A stretch of DNA of 64,000 nucleotides from Tausonia pullulans. Its lineage: Eukaryota; Basidiomycota; Tremellomycetes; Cystofilobasidiales; Mrakiaceae. A program made the translations under genes and the position numbers. The notes beneath the pieces were generated by a model. The model searched no databases. It was not told where the DNA came from and worked only from the letters and a program-made list of their open reading frames with translations. Positions 3,327 through 49,701 of this stretch are shown in pieces (within the stretch, counting starts at the first letter, position 1; the number at the start of each line of letters is the position of its first letter). Location of the stretch: contig OX637622.1 of assembly GCA_951802195.1 (NCBI GenBank), positions 1,488,001 through 1,552,000 of the forward strand, read 5' to 3'.

Positions 3327-4273
3327 GAGCCCTAAATCAGAATGCCTCCAAAAACATGATTTGCGCACGAAATCCGACGACTGTATCAGGGTCGACGCCA
3401 CAACTAAGGAGTCCACGAAAAATAGCTTATATTCTGACCATCGAACAATGCGGAAAGCGATCCCGAGAATGAACGAGTATCTTACTGCGTTCTATTCCTC
3501 TGATTGACACTCTTGATCTCCGACCCCTCTGCCCATTTTCTTTCTGGGATCGACCAGTTCCAAAGTGGATGTGGTCCTCCTTGAACTGAGCCAAAGGCCT
3601 GGGCGCGAATGGTGAGTGAAGGCTTGAGCACGCTTGCCGAGACGTCGATTATCACCTTCGACAGCGATTCATTGGTCCTGTGGCGCCTCTGGACACAAGA
3701 CGAAGTCCTTTGACAGCCATGAAAGGCCAAAGCAGTCGCAGCACACTCAGGATGAGATACTCGTGAGAAAGTAATGTACGAATCCCCGGGTTAACAACTT
3801 CATTGTCACTTCGCGATTCTTCCTCCATACCATCTTCCAGATCCATCGTCGGATCCACTGTCTCGGGTCAATGAAGATCTGGGCAGGGGCATCGCGATGG
3901 CCAAGGGTGAAGCCAGCCGCGAGATAAAAAGCTACCGCCCATCTTTCTTCTTCTTCTTAAAAGAGTGACAATCAGCATGTAAAGGAGAATAGAGAGGGAT
4001 TAAGATATTCTGAAACTGATCGCGCCGAAGGTAGAGTTCGAAACGCAAAAGGAACGATGAGGTTTGACCGGCTTCCCGCTCGGCTTCCATTTCCCACCGA
4101 CCCCCCCCCCGGCGGCCTCAAACGATGCCATGCTCCTCGGGATGTTTGAGGGGCGGGGTCTGTGATGTGCGTGTCCTCGTGCCCTCTCCTCTTGGCCGGC
4201 CGGATACCCCCGCCCCTCCGCAGACGGTCCGCCAGAGACGTCAAGGTTGCCGGCTCTGCAAGGGGGTGGGTGT

Positions 4274-4301
4274 GGGGGGGGGGGGGAGGGGGGGGGGGGG
4301 G
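4274..4301. repeat. G13-A-G14 homopolymer tract
   Basis: Thirteen G, one A, then fourteen G on the plus strand, intergenic. It is a strong G-quadruplex candidate and a likely length-error site in the assembly. Confidence 0.95.
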
Positions 4302-4550
4302 CAATCTTCTCCACGAGCCGAGGCCATGTTCCCTCGCAAGAAAGCATGCGATCTGCTGCTCATCCTCACGCTTGCAAATTACACTCTGTCCTTAGCTCCC
4401 TTCGACCACGACCCGGCTCCTCGCCCCCCCTCCCCTCACGTTCGCCCAACCTTCGTACATTAACCTCACACGTTGGTCCCCAATTTACCACTAGGGCGAT
4501 GCATGTGGGAGTCTTACTTCGGAGCTGACCCTTCTCCGCGTCGACTCTCA

Positions 4551-4603: not shown

Positions 4604-6295
4604 ATGCTGCCCAAGACCCTTCTCGTCCTCGCTCTTTCAGCCGCTTCTTTCGTCGCCGCTGTGCCATTTAACCAGGATGCCTCGACTGACCGCTACAATG
4701 TCGGCGGCGGGCCCGGTGCGTCCCGGTGACGATGCAGCGTCGTATCGCTTGATAGGGCCCGTTTCGCTGACGGCATGCGTTCCGTGCATCCTTTCAGGCA
4801 AGCGCCAGGATGCCTCGACTGACCGCTACAATGTCGGCGGCGCGCCCGGTGCGTCTCGGTGACGATGCAGCGTCGTATCGCTTGATAGGGCCCGTTTCGC
4901 TGACGGCATGCGTTCCGTGCATCCTTTCAGGCAAGCGCCAGGATGCCTCGACTGACCGCTACAATGTCGGCGGCGCGCCCGGTGCGTCTCGGTGACGATG
5001 CAGCGTCGTATCGCTTGATAGGGCCCGTTTCGCTGACGGCATGCGTTCCGTGCATCCTTTCAGGCAAGCGCCAGGATGCCTCGACTGACCGCTACAATGT
5101 CGGCGGCGCGCCCGGTGCGTCTCGGTGACGATGCAGCGTCGTATCGCTTGATAGGGCCCGTTTCGCTGACGGCATGCGTTCCGTGCATCCTTTCAGGCAA
5201 GCGCCAGGATGCCTCGACTGACCGCTACAATGTCGGCGGCGCGCCCGGTGCGTCTCGGTGACGATGCAGCGTCGTATCGCTTGATAGGGCCCGTTTCGCT
5301 GACGGCATGCGTTCCGTGCATCCTTTCAGGCAAGCGCCAGGATGCTTCGACTGACCGCTACAATGTCGGCGGCGCGCCCGGTGCGTCCCGGTGACGATGC
5401 AGCGTCGTATCGCTTGATAGGGCCCGTTTCGCTGACGGCATGCGTTCCGTTCATCCTTTCAGGCAAGCGCCAGGATGCTTCGACTGACCGCTACGATGTT
5501 GGCGGCGCGCCCGGTGCGTCTCGGTGACGATGCAGCGTCGTATCGCTTGATAGGGCCCGTTTCGCTGACGGCATGCGTTCCGTGCATCCTTTCAGGCAAG
5601 CGCCAGGATGCTTCGACTGACCGCTACAATGTCGGCGGCGCGCCCGGTGCGTCCCGGTGACGATGCAGCGTCGTATCGCTTGATAGGGCCCGTTTCGCTG
5701 ACGGCATGCGTTCCGTTCATCCTTTCAGGCAAGCGCCAGGATGCTTCGACTGACCGCTACGATGTTGGCGGCGCGCCCGGTGCGTCTCGGTGACGATGCA
5801 GCGTCGTATCGCTTGATAGGGCCCGTTTCGCTGACGGCATGCGTTCCGTGCATCCTTTCAGGCAAGCGCCAGGATGCTTCGACTGACCGCTACAATGTCG
5901 GCGGCGCGCCCGGTGCGTCCCGGTGACGATGCAGCGTCGTATCGCTTGATAGGGCCCGTTTCGCTGACGGCATGCGTTCCGTTCATCCTTTCAGGCAAGC
6001 GCCAGGATGCTTCGACTGACCGCTACGATGTTGGCGGCGCGCCCGGTGCGTCTCGGTGACGATGCAGCGTCGTATCGCTTGATAGGGCCCGTTTCGCTGA
6101 CGGCATGCGTTCCGTGCATCCTTTCAGGCAAGCGCCAGGATGCCTCGACTGACCGCTACAATGTCGGCGGCGCGCCCGGTGCGTCTCGGTGACGATGCAG
6201 CGTCGTATCGCTTGATAGGGCCCGTTTCGCTGACGGCATGCGTTCCGTTCATCCTTTCAGGCAAGCGCCAAGATGGTTCGCCCGACCGCCGTTAA
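4604..6295 (+). CDS. Secreted kexin-processed repeat-peptide precursor (exon-intron tandem array)
   Basis: Predicted 235-residue precursor from 13 exons. Exon 1 (4604-4715) encodes a signal peptide (hydrophobic core LLVLALSAASFVAA, likely cleavage after Ala19) and a first peptide copy. Exons 2-12 are each 51 nt, starting at 4798 and then every 133 nt to 6128. Each encodes KR-QDASTDRY(N/D)VGGAPG, with the bounding Gly codon split by a phase-1 intron. Exon 13 (6261-6295) is a decayed copy reading KRQDGSPDRR then TAA. All 12 introns are 82 nt, with GTGCGT donors, a CTGAC branch site and CTTTCAG acceptors. Twelve Lys-Arg sites would let a Kex2-type protease release about twelve 15-mers: eight with Asn, three with Asp, and one amino-terminal variant ending GGGPG. 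There is no cysteine and no CAAX end, so it is not a farnesylated pheromone. Architecture matches kexin-processed repeat proteins (alpha-factor precursors, ustiloxin/phomopsin-type precursors). The peptide itself I do not recognise. Confidence 0.85.
4798..6260 (+). repeat. Eleven 133-bp tandem units, each one exon plus one intron
   Basis: Units begin at 4798, 4931, 5064, 5197, 5330, 5463, 5596, 5729, 5862, 5995 and 6128; the first intron (4716-4797) and exon 1 supply a partial unit before them. Units differ at only about five positions: GCC/GCT (Ala), AAT/GAT (Asn/Asp), GTC/GTT (Val), and two intron positions (GTGCGTCTC/GTGCGTCCC and GTGCATCC/GTTCATCC). Introns are as conserved as exons, which points to recent amplification or homogenisation of the whole unit. 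Confidence 0.97.
5330..6127 (+). repeat. Higher-order repeat: three 266-bp dimers inside the array
   Basis: Units at 5330, 5596 and 5862 share GCT, AAT-GTC, the CCC intron start and TTCATCC. Units at 5463, 5729 and 5995 share GCT, GAT-GTT, the CTC intron start and TGCATCC. They alternate strictly, giving three identical dimers. The four units before them are identical to each other, and the unit at 6128 is a hybrid. This is the pattern left by unequal crossing-over. Confidence 0.9.
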
Positions 6296-7337
6296 GTTGA
6301 CGGAGTGCTCGGTGAGTTTGTGCTCCTCTGGTAGTTTTTGATGTGAGACGTCACTGAACGGTTCGCTGTGCTTGCACAGAAGTAAATGCACATACTGTAT
6401 TCACTCTCGTTCCTACGCCTCAAAGGAGACGATGGTCCTTTTCGCTCGACTGTCTTCGTGATGGTGTTTCAACCGCTTTTTGCTAGTCTCCACCTTCGCA
6501 ACTCCACAACTTCGTGTCCCTTTCATCACACCATGCATCTGCCCTATGCTTTACTTCGCCAATGACCTCATGATCTTCAGCTAATCACCTGCGTGAACGA
6601 CGTGCGAGTCCGAATTGGCTGATCGCAGCTCGCCTTGCAGCCTTATGATCTGCCTAGAAAGTTTGCTCGCTCGACCGGATCGGAGCTTACATCGGAAGCT
6701 GGATGCAAACCAATCTCAACCACACACGTCTTTCACAGTCTCTTCCGGTCCTACGTTCACGGCGCTGTCAGTCCACGTTGGCCTCACACTGTTAGGTCCA
6801 CTAGCAGCAAACGCTCTACGGGCGCCACGCGGGTCGCGTCACTCGTCCGCCCGGCCACCCGCGCGCCCTCGCGCCTGAGACTTCCCCTTCCCCTTCGTAC
6901 TCCTTCCTCACCCCCTTCTTTGCGCATTCTTACCTCAACACTCACCGTTCCTTCGAGCCCTCTCTCTTTAACACTTAATTGAGTGCCCCAAGATACCATA
7001 GAACGCATTTGACGGCCTCTGTGAGTCCAGTCCAGCTGGCTCTCGGCCTTCCTTCCCGTCCTCTTCTCTTCCCTTGAGGCTTGAGGAAGCCGGCGAGACA
7101 AGAGCCCCGCCTCTGACGGTCTCAGCCTTCCTCCAACCTTCCTCTCCCTCCGCTACCTTCCTTCCTCTCTCTCCTTCCTTCCCCTCTCCCTTTCCCGTCT
7201 CTGTCTTTCCTTCCTTTTCTTCCCTCCCTCCGTCCTCCACCTTGCATCCCCCTCCGACCTATTCCTCTGCTTTCCATCCACGCTTCTTCGCAGACCTCTG
7301 TCGTCCATCCCCCTCGGACTCCCCTTAGTCCATTTCA
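6296..7337. other. Intergenic region between the repeat-peptide gene and the OPT transporter
   Basis: The first part is 3' untranslated sequence of the peptide gene. The decayed last repeat keeps its 51-nt exon length, and its donor (GTGAGT at 6312) is followed by a usable acceptor (GCACAG ending 6379), so a 3'-UTR intron is possible. From about 7100 to 7335 the plus strand is strongly pyrimidine-rich (CT runs), as expected for the leader of the transporter at 7338. No further gene is seen. Confidence 0.5.
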
Positions 7338-10300
7338 ATGGCGAACCCCCTCTCCTCCGCCGACTCGAGGCCGTCGACCGCCCGTCCCAGGACGTCGACC
7401 AGCCGCCCCCCCACCGCGACCTACGACCACCGCCCGGGGACGACCGGCAGCACCCTTTCGAACGGCATGCCCCTCACCCTCTTCCAGCCTGACCCGGAGC
7501 CTGTCGGCGAGGAGGGCGAAGAGGGCGATGAGAGCGAAGTTGAGGAGGACATCTTCGCCTTCCACCGGCCTGAGACGGGTGCCCCTCGCAACGAGACCGC
7601 CTACGTTGCCTACGATGTCCTGCATCCGCCTCACGTTCAGGGCAGACCCGCCAACGCAGGGGAATCCACCGACGACGTCTTCGCCTTCATGCCCCCCGTC
7701 CGTGCGCCGGGCTTGGGCCTCGCACATCCCGACTACACCCAAACCTTCTCGCGCGCGGCTCACTCCTCCGCCGCCGCTGGGCCCAGCGTTGGTGTTCCCA
7801 TCCCTTCCGAGCTGAATGCACCTCCCCCTTGGCGGGGGCTCCCTGCCCTCGACACCAGCTCCTTTATCTCCCGACCTTCCACCGCCACAACCTCGGCCTA
7901 CTCCACATCCACCCGACCTGGTCAAAGGGCGAGTTCGAGCCGCCACGGTGGCGATTTCCGCCCCCACACCGCTCAGACGGTGGAGACGGAGGAGGAGTAT
8001 CCGCGCGCCATGCCGGAGATGGCGGGTCAGTCGTATCCCCTTGCCATTATGTCGCCCTACGACGGCCGCGACGCGAGGGAGGCCGACGAGCGGGCTAAGG
8101 CTTGGGCAGAGGCCCACCGGGACGGTCGTTCTGAGCTGGAGGGCGCCACGACGGTCCCAGACGGGGTTACCACTCGAGGCGGCGGTGAGCCGTCCATAAC
8201 CCCAGAGGAGCTCATCGTCCCAGAGCTGCTGGCCACTCAAGATGCGGAAGGCTCCCAAGTGGAGCAGATTGTCAAGTACGTGCTTTCCACGATTGTGCCG
8301 ACCAGAAAAACAGTCTCATGTTCTCTTCTCCGTGTCAGGGATGGCATTGCAGCCGACCTCTGGGAGGACGACAGTCCCTACATCGAAGTCCGAGTCTCTG
8401 TCTCAAACATCGACGATTTAGAAACGCCCAGTGCGTATTGCCCGGCTCTTATCTTACTTATCCTGGCAGCTGACGAGGTACTCGTCAACAGCTCTCACGT
8501 TCCGCGTCTGGCTTATTGGAATCCCCCTGGCCATGATCGTCTCTGGTGCTCAGGTGTTCTTCTACCTTCGCCAGAACTCTCCGTCCATTCCTGCTATTCT
8601 CGTCATGTGCGTATGGGATCCCCCGTTCGAGTCTACCTTGACGACTGACTGAGAGAACTTGCCTCGCTCTCATTGCAGCTTCATCGCCTGGCCCTTCGGC
8701 AAGATCCTCGAATGGGTCCTCCCGATCAGGGATTTTGAGATCCCCTCTTGGTTCCCCTTCATCGGCGGTTCCGAGTTTTCCTTGAACCCCGGCCCCTTCA
8801 GCATCAAGGAACACGCCCTCATCGCCATGCTTGCTACCATCGGCGAAATCGCCCCGTACAGCATTGGCGTCACAGCGACGAGCTCCATGCGTTACGGGCA
8901 TTCCTTCGCCTTCGGGTGAGTTCCAGGCATCCCAAACCCATATCTTCCATGTCTCTGAATCTATTGCGGTCTTTGCTCCAGATTCGAGGTCCTCCTCATG
9001 TTTGTTTGCCAATTGACTGGGCTCTGCTTCGCGGGTTTCTTGGAACCTCTTCTTGTGAGCATTGCCCCTTGGCCTTTCATAATTTTCCGCAGAGCTAATT
9101 TAAGGGCTCTGCTGCATTGCGACTCAAGATTGCGCCTCCCTCCCTTCTGTGGCCGCAAAATCTCATTTTCTGCACGACCCTTAATGCGCTTCATTCCGAG
9201 GTTGATGGGGAGGATGGCCGAATGTCGAGGCTCAAATTCCTTGAATGGGTCACCGCTGGCGCGTTCATCTGGTACTTCGTGCCTGGTCCGTTGTAATCAT
9301 CAGTTGTCCCTCCCTAGACCAGCTTCACTGACTTACTCTACAGGCTTCCTCGTGCAGTGTCTTGCCTACTTCACCTTTGTCTGTTGGGCCGCGCCGAGTG
9401 CGTCTTGTGGCAGTCCGTCAAGGATTCTCGTGTCACGCTGACCTTCGCCCTCCAACAGACAATATCGTTGTCAACCAGCTCTTCGGCTCCGTCTCCGGCC
9501 TCGGCATGAATATTCTCAGCTTTGACTGGAGCGTCATCTCTGGTTTTGCATCGCCGCTCATGATCCCTTGGTGGGCACAGGCCAACTTGCTTGCCGGGTT
9601 TGTCGTGAGCTTCTGGGTCATCCTCCCCGCCATGTACTACTCGAATGTGAGTATCCCGCCTTCAGATGCATCTTTAGAGGCCGTTGGAAGCTGTGCTGAC
9701 ATTAGATATCTGTATGCACAGTCCTGGAACTTCGCGTATCTTCCCATTATGACCTCGCAAGCCTTCGATCGCTTCGGCCTGCCCTACAACTACACCTCGA
9801 TCCTCACCGCTCAGACCACGCTCGATGTAAAGGCCTACGCCAACTACTCGCCGCTCTATCTCTCGGGCTCCTTCGTCGCCATGTACTTTTGCAGCATCGC
9901 CGTCGCAACAACCGCCATAGTCCACATGGCCCTTTACTACCGCGCACCGATCTGGGCTGCTATACGGGGGCGCCAATTGGAGAAGGAGGACATTCATGCG
10001 CGCATGATGAAGAAATACCCTACAGTCCCGAGATGGTGAGTCTCATCGCGACCCCAAGTGCGTGTCGTCGGTCGCTCACCCTCCCCTCGTACTTTCTCAG
10101 GTGGTACGGTGTTCTTTTCGTCATTTGCTTTGTTCTCGGCGTTTGCGCCGTCCAGGTTCGTTGTCTTGGTCTGTGGAGCCCGCTCGACCTTTCTACCGCT
10201 GATCCGAAAGGTCTCCAGATCTATGACACAAAGTTCCCTGTCTGGGGTTTGCTCCTTGCCATTATCATATCTGCTGTCTACTCAGTGCCTTCCGGATATG

Positions 10301-11789
10301 TGTTTGCAATGACTGGTTTCTCTGTCAGTTCTGTTGCGCACTCGAACAACCTGGTGCCAGACTGAAATTTTCTTCTATCCACCTATCTTCAGCCGAGTCT
10401 CACCAACGTCGTTTCTCAAATCACTACCGGGTATCTCTTTCCTGGCATGCCCATCCCTGGAATGGTGAGGCGCAGCTTTTCAATCTTTTCACTTTTGTAC
10501 CTTTTCTGACTTCTAGTAACGTTGATCCTGGCTGCATAGATTTCTAAGGGTGTCTCGGTCCAGACACTACTCATGAGCACACGCTTCAGCCAGGTAGGAG
10601 CGCCAGATGCTGGTCTTCTCCCGTGCCTGAATGTCTGTTGAGCTGCTCTTCCTGGTTCGCAGAATATGAAGTTGGGCCACTACATAAAGATTTCGCCTCG
10701 TCACACGTTCCTTAGTTTGTGTTCTCTCCAATTCGGCTGACTTTTCCAGCTCTAACCGCTGCTGTTCTCGAACACACAGTCCAAGTCGTTGGCACATCGG
10801 TCATGTGTCTCTCACAGGCCGGTGTCAAGGTCCTGCTCTTTAAATCTCAGACAATATGTACTCCGGACGATCCCAAACAACTCACTTGCCCGACCCTCAA
10901 CACTTTCTTCACCGCCTCTGTCCTCTGGTTGGTCGTATATGCTCTTCATCTTCTTGACTACGTCCTCACTGCCCTGTTTTTCTCTAGGAGTCTTATCGGA
11001 CCTGAACGTCAATGGGGACCTTTGGCGCTTTATCACCCAGCCCTGTGGGCTTTCCTCATCGGCGCATTCCTTCCGGTCGCCAGCTGGCTTCTCATGAAGA
11101 AGGTTTGTTCCGTCCGGCATCGTCCTACGGAGAAGTTCTGACAGGCTGTTCCGAACAGTATCCGCGCAGTTGGACACGGAAGATCAACTTTATCATCATC
11201 CTTTGTGGCAGCTCATATCTTCCAGGGACACCAGCCCTAGTATACACGTCTTTCTTTCTTGTCGGGTTCATCACTCGTGCGTGAATCATTCCTTGCAACT
11301 CGTTCCTCGCGTGCTATTGACACAGCCGTACCGCGCAGAATACGTTCTCCGCCGGAAGTACTTCGACACCTGGTCTAAGGTGAGACTGCCATCTTCATTT
11401 TCAGCTAGCTATGCTCCCTCTAACTTCAATGTCTTCGACTATTGTAGTACAACTATGTTGGTAGTGCCGCACTTGATGCAGGAACGTGTCTCAGCATCAT
11501 CTTCATCTTCGTCACCCTGGTCTTGCCCAAGTCTGGTACAATCTTCCTGGACTGGATTGGCAACACCATCAATGACAAGAGTGAGCGCGCCTCTCTTGCC
11601 TTTCTATCGTCTGGCACTGACTTTGACTTTTCTAACTAGCTCTCGACTTCAAAGGAAATGAAACTTTCCGCCCTGTTCCGGAGACTGGTTTCGGACCCAG
11701 CTCTGTGCGTATGACGTCCATATTCGCTCTTTGTCGCCGACTCACTGACCTTCTTTTCCATTCGCCCGTCCTCGCAGTGGCCAACTTAA
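7338..11789 (+). CDS. OPT-family oligopeptide transporter
   Basis: Multi-pass proton-coupled importer of small peptides (OPT family, as in Opt1/Isp4), at plasma membrane or endomembranes. The family signature SPYxEVRxxVxxxDD is present as SPYIEVRVSVSNIDD (~8375-8425). The second signature is NPGPFSIKEH (~8785-8815). Later exons give typical OPT segments: NILSFDWSVISGFASPLMIPWW, NYSPLYLSGSFVAMYF, a Trp-rich WYGVLF helix, GYLFPGMPIPGM, GPERQWGPLALYHPALW and KYNYVGSAALDAGT. More than ten short introns were read. The first ~310 residues are a Ser/Thr/Pro-rich, acidic cytosolic extension with no membrane segment, longer than the family core needs. The last exon is short (WPT then TAA at 11787-11789), so the 3' end is the least certain part. 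It starts 1.04 kb downstream of the repeat-peptide precursor, on the same strand. Confidence 0.88.
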
Positions 11790-44848: not shown

Positions 44849-45459
44849 GATGATGTGTGATGATGCAGGGAGTGCGAAGAGAAGAGACGGGCCTGTAGAT
44901 GGACAGGTCTGATCAGCCCAGGTCGACGAGTGCCTNNNNNNNNNNNNNNNNNNNNNNNNNNNNNNNNNNNNNNNNNNNNNNNNNNNNNNNNNNNNNNNNN
45001 NNNNNNNNNNNNNNNNNNNNNNNNNNNNNNNNNNNNNNNNNNNNNNNNNNNNNNNNNNNNNNNNNNNNNNNNNNNNNNNNNNNNNNNNNNNNNNNNNNNN
45101 NNNNNNNNNNNNNNNNNNNNNNNNNNNNNNNNNNNGGGGGCGGACGCGACGGCGGACGCGCAGAGGCGGCGGCGAGTGGGCGGGCTGCTGGGCGGAGTGT
45201 CTGGCGCGGACACGGCGGGCTGGGCTTGCTCTCTTGTCAGGGCACGTCGGGCTGGGCCTGGTGCATGGCCTGGCCGGGGTGGTGTGCAGCGGGCGGTGGT
45301 GGTTGACGGTCGCCTGCTCCGTGCGCTCCGCCCGCCGCTCGCCGTCGCCGCCTCCCGCCTGGCCCACGCGTGTCTCCACCAACCACGCTCCCCGCCAGCT
45401 TCACCACGCCACACCTCCCTCCCTCCCCGTCGTCCCGCCCGCTTACCCCCAGCCCTCTC
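44849..45459. other. Divergent promoter region of SSN3 and the Rab5 gene, containing an assembly gap
   Basis: 611 bp, of which 200 are N (44936-45135). The sequence on either side of the gap is extremely GC-rich. No gene can be read here. Confidence 0.6.
44936..45135. other. Assembly gap, 200 N
   Basis: Exactly 200 undetermined bases, a round number suggesting a scaffold gap of unknown or estimated size. Confidence 0.99.
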
Positions 45460-47814: not shown

Positions 47815-49701
47815 ATGGCGTTCCTCCCGCCCTGCGCGCGCGCGCTCCAGCACCACCTCCCCTCGCTCGTCGCGTCCTCCTCCGTCCGCGCTCTCTGCTC
47901 GTCGACGTCCGCCTTCCCGCTGTTCCCCGCTCGGCCGTCTCGGACGCGAGCTGCCGCGTCGTCGCCTCTGGTGTTCGCTGCTGCTGCTGCTGCTGCGAGC
48001 TGGAAGGGCAAGGGGAGGGAGATGAGCTCGTCAACGACAACTGGCGAATCGCCGCGGACGCCATCAGCGGCGGGACGGGTTGTCCCGGAGGAAGGCGGAC
48101 TGGGTGTCGGTGGAACAGGTCAGTCTTCGTTGTTGAGACTTCTATGGAGCGAGGGCTGACGACGGGAAGGGCCTTCCCCCCACCCACCCCAGTCTCCCCG
48201 CCAGCGTCGCCTACACCGGCAAGCTCGTCGTCGATGCCTGCCTCGCCCACAACGTACAGGCCGCTCCCACCCTTGCTCCGACCGAAGCGGCTCGCCAACC
48301 TCTACCTCCAGCTCGCCAAGAACCGGCTCACCCTCCTCATAGTCCTCACCTCCACCACGGGGCTCGCCCTCTCCCCCCTCCCGACGACGCTGCCCATGCT
48401 TCTCTCCCTCTCCGTGGGGACCTACCTCTCCTCGGCCGCCGCGAATGCCATCAACCAGCTCTTCGAGTCCCCTCTCGATGCGCAGGCACTCCGGACCCGG
48501 AATCGGCCGCTCGTCACGAGGGCCATCTCCCCAGTGCATGCGGCGCTCTTCGCTCTGACATGCGCGACGCTCGGGACCCTGCTCCTCTGGTGGGGCTGCA
48601 ACCCGACGACGGCTGCTCTGGGTGTGGCGAACCTCGTGCTGTACGCGTTCGTCTACACGCCCATGAAGCGGCTCTCCGTGGCCAACACGTGGGTCGGGGC
48701 CATCGTCGGGGCGATCCCGCCCGTCATGGGTTGGACTGCGACGGGGGCGGGGCTCTTCCCTACGGAGGCGCAGAAGGAGTGGCTCGGACTGCCAAGTTGG
48801 TTCCCAACTTCGCCCCCGCTAGTCGCTCCTGCCACGACGACGACAGGTGGTGGTGGTGGTGGTGATGGTGAAAGCGACGAGTACTACCCCGCCCAAGAAG
48901 GCTTCAAGCCCGTCCGGAAACGATCCTACATCACCCCGGAACCCGCCGCCGAGCTCGACGACCCCCTTCCGTCCATCGCCCTCCCGAACGCCTCCCTCCC
49001 AGCGATCCCCTTCCTCTCTCATCTCAAAGCCCAACTCCCCTCCCCAGAGATCAACGTCCTCGCCCCCCTCACGCTCGCACTCTTCCTCTTCTCGTGGCAA
49101 TTCCCGCACTTCAACCCGCTCTCGCACCTCCTGAGGGCGTCGTACGCCAGCTCGAGCTACAAGATGCTCGCGGTTCTGAACCCGCAACGGAACGCGACCG
49201 TCGGGCTGAGGCACGCGGTCTATCTCGTGGGGATCTGCTCGGTCATCGCGCCCTTGAGTGGGGCGGTGGGATGGGGTTTCGCGCTGACGAGCCTGGTGCC
49301 GAACGGAATTGTGCGTTCGCCTCCTTCACTCGTTCGTTTGCTCCCCCCTCGCTTGACCTGTGGACTGACGCCAAGATGCATCGGATCGACCGACTGACCG
49401 ACAGCTCCTCAAGCACGCCTACGCCTTCTATCTCCGCCAACGGGAGAAACAAGCCCGCCGACTCTTCTGGTCGTCGCTCTGGTACCTCCCTGTCGTCCTC
49501 GGCCTCATGATCGTCCACAAGAAGGACGCGGACTGGACGAGCTGGGCGACGGAGTCGAGGTTGGGGAAGGTCGTCAGGGAGGTCGTCAGTGGGGGCGGGG
49601 AGAGCCCGGAGGAGATGGTGGAGAGGGCGCTGAGGGAGCGGGAGAGGAGGCGGCGGGGAGGGGTCGGGGAGGGAGGGAAGTTTGAGGTGGTCGCCAACTG
49701 A
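47815..49701 (+). CDS. COX10: Protoheme IX farnesyltransferase Cox10
   Basis: Mitochondrial inner-membrane UbiA-family enzyme that converts heme B to heme O for cytochrome oxidase. The N-terminus is Ala/Ser/Arg-rich without acidic residues, as for a mitochondrial targeting presequence. Signature one is NAINQLFESPLDAQALRTRNRPL (prenyl-diphosphate-binding N...D...D-type motif with RTxxRPL) near 48450. Signature two is YTPMKRLSVANTWVGAIVGAIPPVMGW near 48655. FSWQFPHFN follows at ~49095. Two introns were read: GTCAGT near 48119, joining GGT to VSPPAS, and one after LVPNGI (~49312) joining to LLKHAYAFYLRQ. A lineage-specific linker rich in Thr and Gly (~48830-48900) separates the two halves. Stop TGA at 49699-49701. 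Confidence 0.93.

Follow-up and report, generated by a model that had tools for sequence, protein, structure and literature searches.

A putative Kex2-processed repeat precursor of Tausonia pullulans whose repeated unit is an exon plus an intron

Structure of the locus

We analyzed a 64,000-nt window of contig OX637622.1 of Tausonia pullulans (the window is the whole stretch of DNA studied, and positions are those of the window). Positions 4604-6295 hold an array of 133-bp repeats, to which TRF assigned a period of 133, 12.2 copies and 97% matches over 4672-6289. Left unspliced, the array carries stops in all three forward frames. Read from the sequence as a gene on the plus strand, it resolves into twelve 82-nt introns of the form GTGCGT...CTGAC...TTTCAG with phase 1 at all junctions. 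Its exons are, in order, one for a putative signal peptide and the first core, 11 internal ones of 51 nt each, and a short one at the end. The modelled spliced coding sequence is 708 nt long, ends with TAA at 6295 and encodes a product of 235 aa in which Lys-Arg stands after each of twelve 15-residue cores (12 Lys-Arg sites). Eight cores have the N form QDASTDRYNVGGAPG, three the D form QDASTDRYDVGGAPG and one the GGGPG form QDASTDRYNVGGGPG. The copy number is taken from an assembly with a gap elsewhere in the window; this gap consists of exactly 200 N at 44936-45135.

Exon 1 (4604-4715, plus strand, 112 nt) contains the ATG, the signal peptide MLPKTLLVLALSAASFVAA with its presumed cleavage point, the residues VPFN and core 1, QDASTDRYNVGGGPG, and ends with only the first base of the last Gly codon of that core. 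The signal peptide is putative and was judged by hydropathy: the Kyte-Doolittle window mean rises to 2.4 and the end is Ala-rich. An in-frame stop is present 5' of the start, at 4526, and the stretch from there to the ATG at 4604 contains no other ATG. A G-rich tract of 40 bases (4262-4301, 79% poly-G match) is found about 300 bp 5' of the start codon.

Intron 1 (4716-4797, 82 nt) is followed, on the same strand, by unit 2 (4798-4930), which consists of a 51-nt exon (GKR-QDASTDRYNVGGAPG, phase 1) and an 82-nt intron, and by units 3-5 (4931-5063, 5064-5196 and 5197-5329), which have the same sequence as unit 2. Units 6-11 (5330-6127) are a 266-bp dimer of one N-form and one D-form unit, present three times, with the D-form exons at 5463-5513, 5729-5779 and 5995-6045. 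In unit 12 (6128-6260), the final intact exon (6128-6178) is joined to intron 12 (6179-6260). An earlier note, made from these letters alone, had given every peptide copy its own 51-nt exon and 82-nt intron; this holds for 11 of the 12 cores, whereas core 1 shares its 112-nt exon with the signal peptide. The copies are also near-identical rather than identical, as that note had it: there are four intron sequences (7, 3, 1 and 1 copies), the least alike pair agreeing at 80/82 positions, and three internal exon sequences.

The array ends in a degenerate unit. Exon 13 (6261-6311, plus strand) aligns ungapped with the core exon at 36/51 identical positions and codes for GKR-QDGSPDRR, after which TAA (6293-6295) stands in place of the AAT of the core. 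Past its first 11 bases it matches the core exon at 26 of 40 positions, a value reached by none of 20000 shuffles (maximum 22), and the likeness continues beyond the stop (11/16). The intron-like stretch that follows 3' of the stop codon (6312-6379, plus strand, 68 nt, GTGAGT...CACAG) is diverged and aligns weakly with introns 1-12, with a score of 36.5 against 20.7 +/- 5.6 for shuffled sequences, 27 of 3000 of which reach it. Its GTGAGT donor and CAG acceptor are still present despite the diverged sequence between them. Unit 13 would thus be the oldest visible copy, one that predates the present homogeneous array and probably now ends the protein.

Splice signals and reading frame

Whether the introns and the frame are real was assessed from the splice signals of the host. 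Outside the array, on both strands of the window, the motif GTGCGT..CT[AG]AC..YAG occurs 18 times, compared with a mean of 2.05 and a maximum of 5 in 20 shuffles, and the wider GTRHGT form occurs 41 times against a shuffled mean of 8.1 (maximum 16). Among these GTRHGT-type sites, the most frequent donor is GTGCGT. The COX10 intron at 49311-49404 (94 nt), the bounds of which are set by homology, likewise has GTGCGT, CTGAC and CAG. The presence of CTGAC branch sites in the introns, one of the original arguments for a working gene, was confirmed, but the motif alone says little because one CTGAC also lies within each exon.

Nor is an open frame decisive by itself: removal of the modelled intron leaves both a frame that contains KR and a second open frame that lacks any dibasic site, and it is the former that continues the frame of the signal peptide. 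In the real unit a single choice of intron and frame produces the KR exon. Among 3000 dinucleotide-shuffled units, only 8 had a branch-site-bearing intron whose removal produced an open exon carrying KR or RR, a figure that leaves the in-phase signal peptide uncounted. Codon use in the core leans towards that of the host (187 of 5000 GC-weighted synonymous versions were as good; GC3 14/17 compared with 0.82 in 579 host codons), and the signal peptide shows a weaker fit (457 of 5000).

These results bear on the simplest rival, namely that the locus is a non-coding 133-bp minisatellite which by chance offers a KR-bearing exon and an intron beside a short ORF resembling a signal peptide. We regard this as improbable, given the rarity of such coherence among shuffled units, the host splice signals at the right places and in the right phase, the in-phase signal peptide and the retention of donor and acceptor in the diverged unit 13. 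The earlier rejection of a minisatellite is well supported, albeit short of proof, for which RNA would be needed.

The consequences of the arrangement for the product were followed in silico. If any one of the 12 introns is retained, the product gains ASR and then meets a stop, which shortens the precursor, whereas all 78 of the single donor-acceptor choices keep the frame to the normal stop. Because the internal exons are all 51 nt long and of phase 1-1, the gain or loss of units, or skipping from site to site, keeps the frame.

Variation among units and growth of the array

Units 2-12 vary at 3 of 51 exon columns and at 2 of 82 intron columns (Fisher p = 0.37), and unit 1 has one extra exon change. 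As exon and intron columns vary alike, there is no sign of selection on the peptide within the array, and the substitution of Asp for Asn, which the earlier note had read as a mark of function, loses its force. The array is too recent for constraint to show. The equal homogeneity of exon and intron columns is what a minisatellite would also present, and the absence of selection on exons relative to introns, together with the decay of unit 13, is compatible with a repeat-precursor gene that has since fallen silent while its array still turns over. The latter has, in our estimation, a low probability, similar to that of the minisatellite: the frame is open across all 12 intact cores, and each has kept its splice donor and the KR after it, although recent homogenization alone would have the same outcome.

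That exon and intron were amplified together, as had been proposed, is supported by the unit sequences and the copies of the 266-bp dimer. The identity of units 2-5 and the thrice-copied dimer form the pattern that would be expected of unequal exchange of exon-plus-intron units.

Distribution in the genome and searches for homologues

Within the 23.9-Mb assembly, the array is the sole locus found, bar one chance-level match. Of the 13 places retrieved with the shortened precursor, all but one (E 0.93) belong to the array. The pattern YAGGNAARCGNCARGA matched 12 times within the array and at two single places elsewhere (14 in all), with two control matches, and a wider KR-donor-acceptor-KR pattern matched at 11 places, all in the array, again with two control matches. 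No second array of the same type was thus found by the two pattern searches, which are blind to arrays whose exons or introns differ in size or phase. TRF detected no other array of period 60 to 500 in 264,000 sampled genome bases (2,000 of them overlapping), which is a further point against the minisatellite.

Near-identical introns are the hallmark of introner-like elements (PMC4457414), and an invasion of a repeat gene by such elements was considered. The intron sequence has 12 matches in the genome, every one of them inside the array and none in unrelated genes, and the exons were copied along with the introns; we rejected this explanation, which appears highly implausible.

Searches for related proteins were negative. 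The full precursor had no homologue at E <= 0.001 in a protein search that scored the 8000 candidates with the largest number of shared words, and a shortened 99-aa precursor had none at E <= 10 among 905 candidates. Such an outcome of two protein searches would suit a minisatellite, but it is a weak negative because many metagenome entries are expected to be unspliced predictions. The precursor matched no Pfam family at E up to 1, and a degenerate core pattern had no match in viral contigs.

Processing genes and neighbourhood

The genome encodes a kexin (P_proprotein above the cut-off; catalytic exon with E 2.7e-74 to a solved kexin) and S10 carboxypeptidases, the latter as family-level matches. 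The model of a signal peptide, 12 Lys-Arg sites and phase-1 junctions put forward earlier is hence supported by the sequence, the host splice signals, the COX10 intron, the shuffles and the kexin gene. A STE3-type pheromone receptor is present as well (G000:C14:628845-629869; 3.2e-43). STE2 (PF02116) had no match in the genome by the same method that found STE3, and none in the control genomes. UstYa/DUF3328 (PF11807) also had no genome match, a weak negative as the control genomes gave none either.

The next downstream gene identified, on the same strand as the precursor, is an oligopeptide transporter (OPT, PF03169; 7338-11111, plus strand, with profile matches over 8683-11111), the scan having covered ORFs other than those between 6296 and 7338. 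The ORF at 7338-8645, which has no Pfam match of its own, probably represents the N-terminal part of this gene. We counted 45 OPT profile matches in the genome, grouped by hand into about 11 loci, so that a given spot would lie within 5 kb of an OPT locus in about 0.5% of the genome. Since other types of neighbour would have looked suggestive too, the adjacency is a lead only. None of the six left-flank window ORFs compared with Pfam (of 11 listed) had a match, and one of six ORFs from the 10 kb upstream (of 28 listed) did, a nucleoside transporter. ARAGORN reported no tRNA in the window, and Rfam at the gathering score nothing.

Further along the window, COX10 (protoheme IX farnesyltransferase, 48144-49545) has its closest named relative, among the matches listed, in Phaffia rhodozyma (57% identity). 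A midpoint-rooted tree of 21 rows, the window protein and 20 chosen from 120 listed matches, placed it within Tremellomycetes (100/100), on the Phaffia side (94/93).

Proposed precursor

Taken together, these observations make it probable that the gene is a Kex2-processed repeat precursor with one exon-plus-intron unit per core, grown by unequal exchange. According to this reading, which draws on the DNA itself, the 12 near-identical introns would be spliced out and the 235-aa product would enter the secretory pathway by way of its signal peptide. Kexin would cleave after each of the 12 Lys-Arg pairs and a Kex1-type carboxypeptidase would trim the Lys-Arg, releasing linear 15-mers: eight of QDASTDRYNVGGAPG, three of the Asp form and a single GGGPG form preceded by VPFN at its N-terminus. 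The calculated monoisotopic masses are 1506.67 and 1507.65 for the 15-mers and 1492.65 for the GGGPG core lacking VPFN. The N-terminal Gln may cyclize, and the expressed peptides may act as a secreted signal. The array would have expanded from an older unit by unequal exchange of whole 133-bp units and of the 266-bp dimer, and a decayed relic of that older unit, unit 13, would supply the stop codon.

Comparison with known repeat precursors

Kex2-processed repeat proteins (KEPs) share with the present precursor a signal peptide (putative here), many near-identical cores and dibasic Kex2 sites, as far as the accessible text of the sources goes (PMC6339444, PMC7329392, PMC9769878). Given the modelled splicing, the KEP features here are 12 cores and 12 KR in the spliced frame, and a kexin is encoded in the genome. 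The 15-aa core fits the class of 9-24 aa, described as the commonest in Dikarya except for yeast-like basidiomycetes, which have longer peptides (PMC6339444), and the lack of a homologue is usual among KEPs, 2560 of 7878 of which have none in the survey sections available (PMC7329392). A table in the same survey lists KEPs in 271 of 317 basidiomycete strains (PMC7329392); the 46 strains without any are all Tremellomycetes, a class with a mean of 1.00 KEP per strain and the exception among classes in the gain of DUF3328 partners by KEP genes (PMC7329392).

In the present precursor, nearly every core has its own exon and near-identical intron. Agaricomycete KEP genes do have introns, intron-less sequences having been amplified from cDNA, and an intron per core may occur there too (PMC9769878). 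The words intron and exon are absent from the text of the two KEP surveys (PMC6339444, PMC7329392). In the abstracts and passages searched we found no fungal repeat precursor described as having an intron in each core, although such an account may exist in print. The earlier remark that KR repeat precursors are known but that this form was unfamiliar can be sharpened: KR-spaced repeats are a named class, the KEPs, and it is the intron per unit that stands out. What appears distinctive is a KEP whose amplified unit is an exon plus an intron, twelve times over.

Ascomycete alpha-factor precursors resemble this one in being secreted and in containing repeated, KR-released peptides, but no XA/XP (STE13) spacer is visible by eye here, QD follows KR, and there is no Pfam match. 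An alpha-factor role seems unlikely, as STE3 has a match, STE2 has none here or in the control genomes, and the residues after KR are not of the XA/XP type.

In ustiloxin, Tyr is the cyclized residue. The precursor here has KR-spaced repeats and Tyr in the core in common with cyclic RiPPs of the ustiloxin/epichloecyclin type (epichloecyclin: PMC7317419 and PMC6374014, as accessible); the genome gave no UstYa/DUF3328 match, nor did the control genomes, which makes this a weak contrast.

The Qsp1-Opt1 quorum-sensing system of Cryptococcus is a Tremellomycete case of a secreted peptide derived from a secreted precursor (PMC7537855, PMC6571750); here, an OPT gene is the first one identified downstream. 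Compared by description in the accessible parts of these sources, Qsp1 matures extracellularly by Pqp1, in contrast to Kex2 acting on a repeat array, and has 11 residues as opposed to a 15-mer (PMC7537855, PMC6571750). In the metallothionein AcMT1, another basidiomycete gene, an exon-and-intron segment was duplicated within the gene, but the account available reports one duplication (PMC12508003), compared with 12 homogeneous units plus a relic, with near-identical introns, in T. pullulans.

Implications

Predicted protein catalogues were the source material for at least one of the KEP surveys (PMC6339444). Such surveys could fail to capture a precursor with an intron breaking up each core, and gene-finding programs may overlook the arrangement. 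A bolder reading, to which we give only a small chance, is that Tremellomycetes use intron-per-core precursors that predictors miss, the scarcity of KEPs in the class being partly an artefact of annotation, and that the peptide is an autoinducer re-imported by the adjoining OPT, a Kex2-released counterpart of Qsp1-Opt1. Under the same tentative proposal, the exon-plus-intron unit would permit free change of copy number, both in DNA and by exon skipping, with the frame kept. The gene, if real, would provide a search rule at the DNA level, a repeated KR just past a phase-1 acceptor, for groups poor in KEPs such as the Tremellomycetes.

In Zymoseptoria tritici, intron duplications other than those of introner-like elements, the tandem route included, make up <1% of single intron gains in the portion of the study available (PMC4457414). 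The array would offer an uncluttered natural example of how tandem duplication within a single gene multiplies spliceosomal introns, and it may be a useful system for studying how splicing proceeds where a dozen nearly identical splice sites lie side by side.
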